Source of the DNA: a virus
Virus record (IMG/VR): IMGVR_UViG_3300048592_000244
Coordinates: 42,114 to 106,113 of that record
Length of the DNA stretch: 64,000 nucleotides
Reading direction: 5' to 3' (one strand)
Each line of letters opens with the position of its first letter. The first letter of the stretch is position 1. A program made the position numbers and the translations under genes. Positions 6,084 to 52,244 of the stretch are shown here, piece by piece. The notes under the pieces are model-generated. The model was not told where the DNA came from. It did not search any database and worked only from the letters and a program-made list of their open reading frames with translations.

Positions 6084-7085
6084 ATGCCCGGCGTAGCAGG
6101 CTTCAATTTCGCTGACGCCGCCGTCATGGTGAAAGAGGAGTTCGAGTCCACGTTCTACCGGACTTTCGTCCGCAACAACGTGTTCATGGAACTGCTCAAC
6201 CCCACTCGTGAGGAGTACGTCGAAAAGGACATCCGCTGGAAGCTCTACTACAGCGGAAACCCTGCGGCGGGCTCGTACAGCGAGGACGGCGACATTGGCA
6301 TCAACCGCACCGACCTTGGTGAGCGTTTCACCACGGCCCAGCTTGACTGGAAGCTGAACGGTGTGCCGATCAAAGTGAGCGGTCTGGCGCAGGCCATCAC
6401 CCAGAGCCCCAAGGCGATCATCGACGCCGTGGGGGAAAACACCGAGCAGGCCCTCAAGCAGTTGCAGGCGAACATGAACCTGCAACTCCTGAGCGACGGC
6501 GCTGGCAACCTGAACGGCGTCAACCCGGCCCTCAACGCCGGTCTTGACATCACCGGAATTCAGGCGGCCATCGACGACGGTGGTGACGTAGCGATCTACG
6601 GTGGCATCGACCGCACCGTGGACGTCTACTGGCAGAGCTTCGTGCTCCGCAATCCACTGGCCCCCGGCACCCCGCGCCCGCTGACCGAAGCACTGATGCA
6701 CCAAGTGATGAACGAGCTTCGTCAGGTGCGTCAGGGCCGCGTCACGCACATCCTGTGCAGCCCGAACGTCTTCACGCAGTACGGTCTCCTGCTTCAAGGC
6801 GACCGTCGCTACCCGCTTACGGGCGGTGGCGCGAACCGCTATGTCGGCGGTTTCGAGGCGTTGAAGTTCGACGACGTTGCACTGGTGAGCGTTCCTCTCT
6901 ACGAGGAAGGCCGCATGGACTTCGTGGACATGGACCTGTTGAAGTACAAGATTCTCTTGGACTTCACCATTTCCCCGCGTGACGCAGGCATCCGCGATGC
7001 CAACGTCATGCACGCGAAGACCTACAGCCAGTTCCAGTGCAAGAACAGCTTCGTCATGGGAAGCATCCGCGACCTGATCGTCTAG
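6084..7085 (+). CDS. major capsid protein, HK97 fold
   Basis: 333 residues. The order fits HK97-type major capsid proteins: N-terminal helix (residues 10-40), an E-loop-like region (about 50-95, with GSYSEDGDIG), the spine helix region with Ala/Gln-rich helix about 110-150 and the P and A domains with THILCSPNVFTQY and a C-terminal strand set. Its place after the scaffold and before connector genes supports this. It is isolated by strong terminators at 5969-6015 and 7117-7145 and has a good ribosome site (AGGAG at 6073-6077), as expected for the most abundant virion protein. Confidence 0.9.
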   Translation: MPGVAGFNFADAAVMVKEEFESTFYRTFVRNNVFMELLNPTREEYVEKDIRWKLYYSGNPAAGSYSEDGDIGINRTDLGERFTTAQLDWKLNGVPIKVSGLAQAITQSPKAIIDAVGENTEQALKQLQANMNLQLLSDGAGNLNGVNPALNAGLDITGIQAAIDDGGDVAIYGGIDRTVDVYWQSFVLRNPLAPGTPRPLTEALMHQVMNELRQVRQGRVTHILCSPNVFTQYGLLLQGDRRYPLTGGGANRYVGGFEALKFDDVALVSVPLYEEGRMDFVDMDLLKYKILLDFTISPRDAGIRDANVMHAKTYSQFQCKNSFVMGSIRDLIV

Positions 7086-45970: not shown

Positions 45971-46368
45971 AGACTCTCGATTTCCTGTGGTTTCCAGTTC
46001 CCTTCAAGGTGCCCCACACGGAGTTCTAGGTCTTCTGGTGGGATGACGTTCACGCTGTAGAGGTTGGATGTGCGCCTCTGTTTATTCCTGCGCTGCTGTC
46101 TGGTGATGGCCCCCACGACTTCGAGAACAGACAGATGGCGGCTGATCGACCGGACGCTGACGTGGGTTTCCTTTGAGATCGTGACGTACTCAGGGAAAAC
46201 ATTGTCGTTGTACTTCATCGCCATGCTGTGCAGGAAAATGTAGACGATCTTAGCGTCACCGGAGATCGGTAGCGCCATGATCCAGTTGGGTAGTTGCCCA
46301 TAAGGAACGACGCCCTTCTTGGCGGCAGCATGACCGGCGACGACGCCGATGGATGATTTCTTCTTCAT
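45967..46368 (-). CDS. winged-helix DNA-binding protein, replication-initiator-like
   Basis: 133 residues. Residues about 28-110 read LPNWIMALPISGDAKIVYIF, then VTISKETHVSVRSISRHLSV and LEVVGAITRQQRRNKQRRTS, a winged helix with a clear recognition helix (VSVRSISRHL) like those of plasmid/phage replication proteins and MarR-type regulators. It is encoded next to three repeats that are good candidate targets. It overlaps the HNH gene by 4 bases. Confidence 0.75.
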   Translation of the reverse strand: MKKKSSIGVVAGHAAAKKGVVPYGQLPNWIMALPISGDAKIVYIFLHSMAMKYNDNVFPEYVTISKETHVSVRSISRHLSVLEVVGAITRQQRRNKQRRTSNLYSVNVIPPEDLELRVGHLEGNWKPQEIESL

Positions 46369-46703
46369 CTGTATTCTCCGTGGAAAATCACACGAGGTAG
46401 GAATGGTGCTTGTAGTGATGACCGATATTCTTCGAGTGTCTGGTCTGACTTTTTGAGATTGCAGTCTGGGCAGGAGGGGGCGCGGTTGCTTTTTGCGTGC
46501 GACCCGTTTCGGCTTCTAGGCACGACATGATCCATGTGCCGGAAATTCAATTCCTCACCGCAATAGAAGCAGTGATTGGGGCTGATATTTTCAGGCAATG
46601 GCGGCAGCGGTAGGAATTTCCCGTGACTGTTGACAGTCACGTCTACGCCGACGATGAGTTCTCGTCGCTCGCGTGCGGCATGGCCGCCTTGAGATTGTCG
46701 CAT
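46365..46703 (-). CDS. HNH endonuclease, zinc-knuckle type
   Basis: 112 residues from ATG 46703, chosen because AAGGAAAGG lies just upstream and the promoter at 46734-46763 is a suitable distance away. CFYCGEE (C45, C48), MDHVVPRS (D58, H59), a SNRAPSCPDCN segment (N73, C78, C81) are the HNH/McrA-like catalytic and zinc residues. It is the first gene of the minus operon. It may be a homing nuclease or a host-DNA-directed nuclease. It has no attached DNA-binding module. Confidence 0.85.
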   Translation of the reverse strand: MRQSQGGHAARERRELIVGVDVTVNSHGKFLPLPPLPENISPNHCFYCGEELNFRHMDHVVPRSRNGSHAKSNRAPSCPDCNLKKSDQTLEEYRSSLQAPFLPRVIFHGEYR

Positions 46704-46733
46704 GGAGTTCACCTTTCCTTGTTGGCGGCACGC

Positions 46734-46763
46734 ACTATAAGGTCGGCAGATGATGGGTGTCAA
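46734..46763 (-). promoter_or_regulatory. near-consensus sigma-70 promoter for the minus operon
   Basis: On the minus strand TTGACA (46758-46763) is followed after 18 bases by TATAGT (46734-46739). Transcription would start near 46727, about 25 bases before the HNH start codon and its ribosome site. This is the clearest host-type promoter in the window and should drive recombination genes early. Confidence 0.8.
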
Positions 46764-46794
46764 CAAAAGAGAAAACCCCAGCTTGCGCCGGGGT
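46764..46794 (-). terminator. minus-strand intrinsic terminator (insulator) upstream of the promoter
   Basis: ACCCC / GGGGT with inner GC pairs (46775-46794) is followed on the minus strand by TTTTCTCTTTTG. It would stop antisense transcription coming from the right before it reaches the minus promoter. Confidence 0.6.
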
Positions 46795-46874
46795 CTCTCT
46801 GCCAAACCAAGGAAAGAAGATTGAAGCAGCCGAAGTCGTGATCTTGTGGTGTTGCACCCTTCGACCACGACGGC

Positions 46875-50358: not shown

Positions 50359-50538
50359 ATGAAGAACTGCAAAGTGACAGTCAAGGGCAACAAGGCAATC
50401 ATCGAAGTCGATCTGACTCAGGACTTCGGCCCATCCTCCTCTGGCAAGACCGTCATCATCGCATCCTCTGAGGGCAACCAGTCTCTGCCCGGAAAGCCTG
50501 AGATCAAGCTGGGTCTCAACGTCTACAAGAAGCCGTAG
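50359..50538 (+). CDS. conserved-type small protein, unknown
   Basis: 59 residues, below common length cut-offs. MKNCKVTVKGNKAIIEVDL, then SSSGKTVIIASSEGN and a closing LGLNVYKKP strand: a small all-beta protein. The pattern of two strands, SSGKT-VIAS-GN and LGLNxYxK is one I associate with small proteins found in many phages and plasmids, function unknown. GGGAGAG ribosome site. First gene after the control region and followed by heavily structured RNA, so probably strongly expressed early. Confidence 0.8.
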   Translation: MKNCKVTVKGNKAIIEVDLTQDFGPSSSGKTVIIASSEGNQSLPGKPEIKLGLNVYKKP

Positions 50539-50550
50539 GCAGACTAGGCA

Positions 50551-50642
50551 GGCTGGCCCGATCATGGGCCAGCCTTGCCCCTTGCCCACTGCTGGCCTAG
50601 TGCGGGCCGTGGGCAAGGGGCAAGGCTTGTTGCCTTGTTTTT
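50551..50642 (+). terminator. array of three strong hairpins ending in an intrinsic terminator
   Basis: GGCTGGCCC/GGGCCAGCC (50551-50574), then a perfect 15-bp stem TTGCCCCTTGCCCAC/GTGGGCAAGGGGCAA (50575-50589, 50609-50623) with its own small inner hairpin, then CAAGGC/GCCTTG (50621-50637) followed by TTTTT. The last two share bases and cannot form fully together. Confidence 0.75.
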
Positions 50643-50683
50643 GTGTCCAGTGGGCCGTGTGGCCTGCTGGAATTTCCGTTTGT

Positions 50684-50736
50684 CTGTCCGGGCATTCTGT
50701 CCGGCCAGTTTTGTCCGCCCGGTCTATCCGGGCACA
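50684..50736 (+). repeat. four short direct repeats, period 13-14 bases
   Basis: CTGTCCG, CTGTCCG, TTGTCCG and CTATCCG begin at 50684, 50697, 50711 and 50724, three of them followed by GGCA or similar. They fill the leader just before the 50752 ribosome site. Regularly spaced units suggest protein binding on DNA or RNA. Confidence 0.5.
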
Positions 50737-50751
50737 GTGGAGGCTATTGCC

Positions 50752-51033
50752 ATGAGTGAGAAGACCAACAAGAAGCCCGTGGATGCTCGCAGCAAGATCG
50801 ACGCCCTGTTCGCCACGTCCCCGGCGAAGGTCCGTGTCCGGGCCGCCGACGACGGCAAGGTCTATTCCGGCGTGGTCGGTTCGGCCCTTGTCGAGAAGTT
50901 CGCCGCTGCCGGTCAGGACGACGCCTTTGTGGCGCTCGGTCTGGTCAACGCCGAGACCCTCAAGCGGTCCAGCAAGACGATGGACGCCAACGCCAACACC
51001 GTCAGCTTGACGCAGGACGCCATCGCCAAGTAG
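50752..51033 (+). CDS. small unknown protein
   Basis: 93 residues from ATG 50752 (GTGGAGG upstream). Lys-rich start, then VRVRAADDGKVYSGVVGSAL and a helical middle, ending in a Thr/Asn/Ala-rich tail. No motif. A frame reading from 50575 is open but lies across hairpins. Long structured gaps separate it from both neighbours. Confidence 0.8.
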   Translation: MSEKTNKKPVDARSKIDALFATSPAKVRVRAADDGKVYSGVVGSALVEKFAAAGQDDAFVALGLVNAETLKRSSKTMDANANTVSLTQDAIAK

Positions 51034-51040
51034 GCCCACA

Positions 51041-51111
51041 GGGGCTGGCCGGAATTTCCTCCGGCCAGCCCCACCGTGGTCTACCGTCGCTGCTCCGTGG
51101 AGCGGCAACGG
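51041..51111 (+). promoter_or_regulatory. two hairpins in the leader of the 51134 gene
   Basis: A perfect 13-bp stem GGGGCTGGCCGGA/TCCGGCCAGCCCC (51041-51053, 51060-51072) with no T-tract, followed by an imperfect hairpin CCGT..GCTC/GAGC..ACGG at 51084-51111. They fill the 100-base gap before the GGGAG site at 51122. Confidence 0.5.
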
Positions 51112-51133
51112 CAGGTCACTTGGGAGCAAGGCA

Positions 51134-51631
51134 ATGCCAGTCAACAAGGCCAGTCTAAAGCGGCACGTAGTCCGAAAGACAGCAACCCGGCACGTCTACC
51201 GGGACAAGCTGACGGTACTGCGTGAAGCCAAACACCCCGGTGTCGCCGCTGTCCGTGGCTACGTCACCGACAAGGCTGGCAACCGGACCACCATGCCGTG
51301 GCAGCTAATTTCCGACAATGCCGCTGCCCACTTGCCCACTGAGCAGGTCTTCACCGAACGCTATGCCCCGATGCGACAAGCCGTGTTCTTCCGCTTCCGG
51401 GCTTGGAAAACTCTGACCGGCAAGACCAACGGAAAGAAGCGGGCAAGGGCCATCCTTCGCCGCGTCAAGGAACTGCTGGACCTGCCGGAACTGAACAACC
51501 CGGACAACCCCGACAGAATCGACAACGGGGTTTTCCGCTTGCTGCCCCGGACTGAGCGGCACTTGGAATTGCTGCAAGCCATCGTCGCCGACAATGACGA
51601 TTGCTTGCTGCCGCTGTCCGATACGCTTTGA
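51134..51631 (+). CDS. basic unknown protein
   Basis: 165 residues, strongly basic in the first 115 (LKRHVVRKTATRHVYRDKL, KTNGKKRARAILRRVKELL) with an acidic C-terminal tail. Its charge suggests nucleic-acid binding, but I see no defined fold. GGGAG at 51122 precedes the ATG. Confidence 0.75.
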   Translation: MPVNKASLKRHVVRKTATRHVYRDKLTVLREAKHPGVAAVRGYVTDKAGNRTTMPWQLISDNAAAHLPTEQVFTERYAPMRQAVFFRFRAWKTLTGKTNGKKRARAILRRVKELLDLPELNNPDNPDRIDNGVFRLLPRTERHLELLQAIVADNDDCLLPLSDTL

Positions 51632-51824
51632 CCCCTTGACGGGTCAACACTGCCTTACGCTGCCTTCACTGTGCGGCTCGGCGGTTTCCGAAAGCGGAGA
51701 TAATCCGCCCACGGTCTAACGTCGCTTCTCAGCGCGAGACGCGACGTGAGCCCGTGGCTCAGTCCATACAATTTCACTCACGCCAGCCCCACTCTGTGGG
51801 GCTGGTCTGCATTGGAGACCAGCC
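51632..51824 (+). ncRNA. candidate structured leader RNA with alternative hairpins
   Basis: 193 bases without a gene. After TTGACGGGTCAA (51636-51647) come hairpin P1 (51680-51709: GGCGG, TCCG/CGGA, CCGCC), hairpin P2 (51709-51757: CCACGG/CCGTGG, a 4x4 internal loop, ACGTCGC/GCGACGT, TCTC/GAGA), hairpin A (51783-51792 with 51796-51805) and a competing hairpin B (GCTGGTCT 51801-51808 with AGACCAGC 51816-51823). A and B share GCTGG; B covers the GGAGA ribosome site of the next gene. This is the design of a translational switch. Confidence 0.6.
51636..51647. promoter_or_regulatory. palindromic operator TTGACGGGTCAA
   Basis: Third intergenic copy of the TTGAC-NN-GTCAA word, right after the 51134 gene stop and before the structured leader. 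Confidence 0.5.
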
Positions 51825-52001
51825 ATGAACCCATACGCTGTCCTGCTCGAAATGGCCGTGAACCAACGGCGCACCGTCCGTGAGGAAATGGCTGAGGCCC
51901 TGCGCAACCGGCATCTCAAGAAGTACGCCGTGCTGGAAAAAGACCACACCAAGCTGTCCGACAAGATCACTGACTACCAGTCGAAATTGAAGGCGGCATA
52001 A
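51825..52001 (+). CDS. small helical protein
   Basis: 58 residues, helical, basic/amphipathic with an REEMAEALRNRHLKK centre. GGAGA at 51814-51818 is the ribosome site, and it lies inside a predicted alternative hairpin, so translation may be regulated by the leader. No family recognised. Confidence 0.75.
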   Translation: MNPYAVLLEMAVNQRRTVREEMAEALRNRHLKKYAVLEKDHTKLSDKITDYQSKLKAA

Positions 52002-52019: not shown

Positions 52020-52244
52020 ATGAAGGAAATCGCTCTTTTCCGTCGTCTCGCCGTCTATGGTGTCCACGACCGCAACTTCGTCTGCTTCCGTCGCGTTGAC
52101 GGCAGCTACGGGGTGTACGACAAGCTCACCAACGAGCAGTTGTTCACCATCGCTGAGGACGAAGCCTACAACACGTTCTACCTCGGGCGTGAGACCGCTG
52201 CCAAGTTCACCTTCTTGGACAGCCCATTCCGCAAGTCGGCCTAA
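52020..52244 (+). CDS. small unknown protein
   Basis: 74 residues, beta-rich and aromatic (NFVCFRRVDGSYGVYDKL, AYNTFYLGRETAAKF). GGAGGATATTCCCGT gives a strong ribosome site 10 bases before ATG. Function unknown. Confidence 0.75.
   Translation: MKEIALFRRLAVYGVHDRNFVCFRRVDGSYGVYDKLTNEQLFTIAEDEAYNTFYLGRETAAKFTFLDSPFRKSA

Follow-up and report, generated by a model that had tools for sequence, protein, structure and literature searches.

The PeSL cassettes of T4-like phages consist of repeated stem-loops in the gaps that flank small genes. In phage lambda, RNase III relieves an inhibitory structure in the leader of the cIII gene (PMC2777011, PMC5371410), and both T7 and lambda contain RNase III sites, which in T7 are located between the early genes (PMC5371410). 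The T4 genes e, soc, 49 and I-TevI have a helix over the ribosome site that forms in some of their transcripts only (PMC3014915). Finally, the ESAS of cluster K mycobacteriophages are repeated inverted repeats upstream of gene starts, defined together with a 13-bp SAS (GGGATAGGAGCCC) beside the start codon (PMC3203893). The 193-base intergenic region analyzed here (hereinafter gap D) is a well-formed leader of a familiar kind, with a putative function, and by analogy may work like the leaders of lambda cIII and of T4 e, soc, 49 and I-TevI. What is new is that gap D and the two gaps that precede it all rank among the four most structured of the genome, and that the main hairpin of gap D is duplicated.

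The window, i.e., the whole stretch of 64,000 nucleotides that was analyzed, spans positions 42114-106113 of a virus record of 106,113 bp, and the phage is unclassified. A plus-strand ORF that likely encodes the major capsid protein (6084-7085) has its sole match among 50,697 phage records in Myxococcus phage Mx9 (24.5% identity, E 5e-7), so that the phage seems to come from an undescribed lineage. On the minus strand, the window encodes an HNH-type endonuclease-like ORF (46365-46868; CFYCGEEL...HMDHVVPRSRNGSHAKSNRAPSCPDCN) adjoined by a strong two-sided terminator-like hairpin (46772-46797). Gap D belongs to a series of small plus-strand ORFs that have no known relatives and lie to the right of the genes for a DnaB-like helicase and a primase. 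The features discussed below are as follows, with gene starts and gap limits given as the output of a simple, crude gene caller:

50359-50538, plus strand: 59-aa ORF, preceded by gap A
50539-50751, plus strand: gap B, the most structured gap in the genome and the first of three in a row
50752-51033, plus strand: 93-aa ORF, preceded by gap B
51041-51072, plus strand: 13-bp perfect hairpin after the 93-aa ORF, in gap C
51076-51119, plus strand: C element, a hairpin homologous to the D element, located in gap C upstream of the 165-aa ORF
51134-51631, plus strand: 165-aa ORF (ATG 51134), preceded by gap C
51632-51824, plus strand: gap D, structured intergenic leader (folding z -5.9), second most structured of 43 gaps
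51636-51647, strandless: palindrome TTGACGGGTCAA at the start of gap D, an exact TTGACNNGTCAA, possible DNA operator
51680-51708, plus strand: upstream hairpin, in which 51680-51691 may pair either with nearby bases or with 51812-51824 at the ribosome site
51709-51757, plus strand: D element, the main imperfect hairpin, with 22-nt arms 86% complementary, homologous to 51076-51119
51783-51805, plus strand: hp1, 10-bp perfect stem (51783-51792/51796-51805) with loop TCT, predicted dominant state
51800-51824, plus strand: hp2, 9-bp perfect stem (51800-51808/51816-51824) with loop GCATTGG, abutting ATG 51825
51814-51817, plus strand: Shine-Dalgarno GGAG, recognized by its sequence
51825-52001, plus strand: 58-aa ORF (ATG 51825), preceded by gap D
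52020-52244, plus strand: 74-aa ORF

The 58-aa product is predicted to form a helical hairpin (mean pLDDT 96), for which fold matches were not significant, and the model of the 165-aa protein (pLDDT 41) is too poor for use. When the proteins of the ORFs starting at 50752, 51134, 51825 and 52020, the helicase and a UvsX-like protein were searched against IMG/VR, the sole match was contig IMGVR_UViG_3300048591_000280, which is 100% identical to the window over 21.3 kb, gap D included. The 165-aa ORF produced no match among phages or GTDB genomes, the 59-, 93- and 58-aa ORFs produced none among phages, and a DNA-level search of phage records detected no relative.

An earlier note on this DNA, made from the sequence alone, described two upstream hairpins in a gap of 193 bases within a genome whose genes are packed end to end. 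Both hairpins are present, at 51680-51708 and 51709-51757, but the packing does not hold locally because the three preceding gaps, A, B and C, comprise 325, 213 and 100 bases. RNA folding, which had been proposed as a check, bears out the structure: in a thermodynamic model that excludes proteins and kinetics, gap D, extended by the initial 16 bases of the ORF, has a folding energy of -90.9 kcal/mol compared to a shuffle mean of -66.6 (z -5.9), a stability reached by none of its 200 shuffles. Two of the three gaps preceding gap D are as strongly structured as gap D itself. In a ranking of the 43 gaps of 50-400 bases by folding z-score, first place falls to gap B (-8.3), second to gap D (-5.2) and fourth to gap C (-4.8), and strong structure is therefore a property of the small-gene cluster rather than of gap D alone. 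A terminator scan detected no terminator-like site or T tract in 51632-51824, and hp1 is followed by TCTGCATTGG, not by the T tract of an intrinsic terminator. A potential leader peptide in gap D (GTG 51673, 10 codons) is without a Shine-Dalgarno and was dismissed by eye. Gap B contains an 18-bp stem (about 50573-50622) and a terminator-like hairpin (50617-50636) followed by TTTTT, with a shared 3' arm; these stems look like an antiterminator/terminator pair, which would make gap B a better switch candidate than gap D.

Next to the start of the 58-aa gene, the block GGCTGG is common to hp1 and hp2, which makes the two stems mutually exclusive. The earlier note had GCTGG (51801-51805) pairing either with CCAGC at 51783-51787, in a 10-bp stem, or with CCAGC at 51819-51823, and both pairings are present; the second stem, however, has 9 bp rather than the 8 reported and ends at 51824, directly against ATG 51825. 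This stem had further been described as covering GGAGA, which is correct for the AG of GGAG, which is paired, but not for the GG, which is left in the loop, such that the Shine-Dalgarno (51814-51817) lies half in the hp2 loop and half in the hp2 stem. Among 20,000 dinucleotide shuffles of gap D, hp1-like stems (10 bp) were found in 34 and hp2-like stems (9 bp, ending at the start codon) in 7, whereas an overlapping pair of the two was found in none. A perfect stem of at least 7 bp ending within four bases of the start is unique to 51825 among 121 crudely predicted starts. With about a hundred gaps open to picking, the occurrence of hp2 is by itself a modest surprise, and that of the overlapping pair a clear one.

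At 37 C, the modelled ensemble of 51632-51865 assigns a probability of 0.999 to hp1 and of 0.0001 to hp2, and forcing hp2 in the full leader costs about 7 kcal/mol in the model. The state of the two stems in the modelled full leader is constant from 10 to 50 C, and the Shine-Dalgarno is closed throughout this range, which is not the behavior of a thermosensor. Transcripts modelled from 51775 divide between hp1 and hp2 at 0.74/0.23 at 37 C and 0.56/0.42 at 25 C, and those modelled from 51796 or later have the AG of GGAG closed. The share of hp2 rises only in transcripts lacking the 5' part, and therefore the leader cannot switch by itself but needs a different 5' end, a cut or a protein to do so. 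With nearly all modelled molecules in one state, the leader looks like an mRNA processing and translation-control leader and not like a riboswitch. In the full leader, the Shine-Dalgarno is predicted to pair instead with 51680-51691 (12 bp, one bulge), but this long-range closing varies with the chosen 5' end and was discarded as unremarkable here (70 of 5000 shuffles; 10th among 121 genes).

The homolog of the D element, the C element, is located 635 bp upstream. The 5' arm sequence GGTCTANCGTCGCTNCTC has two exact occurrences in the 106 kb, at 51078 in gap C and at 51713 in gap D, and both are followed by a matching 3' arm. Across 20 aligned pairs, the two elements differ at four positions of the 5' arm, and all four differences are matched in the 3' arm (G-C/A-U, U-A/C-G, C-G/A-U and G-C/U-A), compared to zero matched changes in slid registers; when the 3' letters were shuffled 500 times, the same count was reached in 30. 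Furthermore, the three mismatches of the D element coincide with non-Watson-Crick pairs in the C element, and with 17-18 of the 20 pairs formed, both elements have the size of an RNase III hairpin, i.e., an imperfect intergenic duplex of ~20 bp. These matched changes, which come from one pair of copies inside one genome, support selection on an imperfect hairpin. There is no strand preference, the stems pairing about equally well on the minus strand, and therefore the matched-change test cannot tell RNA from DNA. Searches of IMG/VR with patterns of the repeated hairpin yielded matches in reading frames or, as judged by eye, over tRNA, and none in a comparable gap; in GTDB, there was one match, inside an archaeal reading frame. 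We judged all these matches to be due to chance.

The palindrome TTGACNNGTCAA at the start of gap D occurs in 5 exact copies in the window (39462, 50090, 50141, 51636 and 56396) versus 0.06 expected, and in 6 in the 106 kb, the sixth at -16062, outside the window. Several copies are located in gaps and two precede a TATAAT-like box in gap A; the palindrome is probably the operator of some regulator. The window contains 45 copies of GGAAATTC where 2.0 would be expected, and the 106 kb contain 157 copies of GGAAATT where about 9 would be, the latter spread over both strands, all frames and the gaps (window examples of GGAAATT(C): 439, 7441, 11045, 50670, 51052 and 53588). The density of GGAAATT is 1.0-2.1 per kb here versus 0-0.17 in unrelated viral loci, and one possibility is that GGAAATT(C) is recognized as a word by a DNA system of the phage or its host.

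The non-random hairpins, the stem at the start codon and the duplicated main hairpin with its compensatory differences support the view of gap D as a leader that is structured and probably acts in cis. What the analysis yields directly is that the pairings exist and exceed chance expectation, that the main hairpin is duplicated with matched changes and that hp1 is predicted to dominate. The reading that we prefer, and to which we assign almost an even chance, takes gap D for an intergenic mRNA element with several hairpins that acts in cis on processing, stability and translation initiation. It would be one of three consecutive structured gaps (B, C and D) of a rightward phage mRNA, around small orphan genes, and its main hairpin, repeated in gap C, would be a ~20-bp imperfect duplex that resembles, in size and type, the intergenic targets of RNase III in phages. 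Upon transcription, hp1 would fold, sequester GGCUGGUCU in its own stem and thereby keep the start of the 58-aa gene from being covered by hp2, so that in the default read-through transcript hp1 would be formed and hp2 absent. Hp2, the likely off state, would be expected mainly in molecules in which hp1 has lost its 5' arm, through a transcript start inside the arm or a cut in it, or in which a protein holds this arm open. We infer transcription through gap D, cleavage, and effects on stability and translation.

As in gap D, the start of lambda cIII is located within a leader that bears an inhibitory structure, and a long imperfect duplex serving as an RNase III target is plausible in gap D. 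There is, however, no known sequence relation between the two leaders, and the model of gap D has the inhibitory stem as the minor state. The helices of T4 e, soc, 49 and I-TevI, like hp2 (51800-51824), are able to cover the Shine-Dalgarno and the start region, but T4 has a closed long transcript and an open short one, the reverse of the gap D model, and no late promoter was recognized. The early-gene RNase III sites of T7 are, like those proposed here from the sequence, imperfect hairpins of ~20 bp in consecutive operon gaps. The C and D elements share with the ESAS an imperfect inverted repeat with a short spacer, repeated upstream of the starts of small non-structural genes, but the 13-bp SAS is absent before both ATG 51825 and ATG 51134, there are two copies instead of many, and the sequence differs. 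They also resemble the PeSL cassettes in being repeated stem-loops in gaps beside small genes, but there are only two copies, and the repeated unit contains no recognized promoter.

A true two-state translational switch of the sort that the earlier note proposed, passing during infection from hp1 (on) to hp2 (off) through a protein of the phage (possibly the 58-aa product itself) or of the host, a second promoter or a cut, is consistent with the overlap of hp1 and hp2 far above chance and with their near balance in the transcript from 51775. We nevertheless consider it unlikely: hp2 amounts to about 0.01% of the full leader and shows no response to temperature, the promoter scan of gap D was negative with no convincing sigma-70 promoter near 51775, and the predicted fold of the 58-aa product is a simple helical hairpin in which no known RNA-binding family was recognized. 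The earlier note had proposed the logic of a riboswitch or a thermosensor, and the alternative pairings at the ribosome site are what would be expected of a metabolite riboswitch or RNA thermosensor. The modelled leader, about 99.9% of it as hp1 irrespective of temperature, does not support this proposal; the families of Rfam 15, including its riboswitches, leaders and thermometers, gave 0 matches in the window at the gathering score and none in gap D even at E <= 5, and there is no metabolic gene downstream of gap D, so that this explanation appears extremely improbable.

Alternatively, the palindromes might act at the DNA level, as regulator sites, replication-linked structure or gene-exchange linkers similar to the T4 PeSL cassettes, with the RNA fold as a by-product. 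The positions of the mismatches, common to both copies of the hairpin and unlike a perfect operator, and the setting of hp2 exactly against the start codon make this rather unlikely, even though the repeated hairpin is a direct repeat flanking the 165-aa gene, the TTGACNNGTCAA palindrome is strongly enriched and located at the start of gap D, both strands fold equally well, and the region comes after the helicase and primase genes. That the hairpins are functionless and arose by chance in a GC-rich gap is very improbable given the shuffle tests and the duplicated element with matched changes, although the long-range occlusion of the ribosome site, taken alone, is as unremarkable as this explanation would predict. 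We also regard as quite improbable an extended proposal, whereby one phage-specific RNA element in consecutive operon gaps coordinates several small genes and, before the 58-aa gene, is joined to a bistable ribosome-site switch thrown by a phage or host factor during infection.

If gap D is indeed a cis-acting element for mRNA processing, stability and translation initiation, this orphan phage would join those that control small genes via structured, possibly processed intergenic mRNA. It would also provide a compact case, testable with reporters, of a single sequence block that can either protect the ribosome site or close it, and the repeated hairpin would mark co-regulated genes in related, still undiscovered phages.
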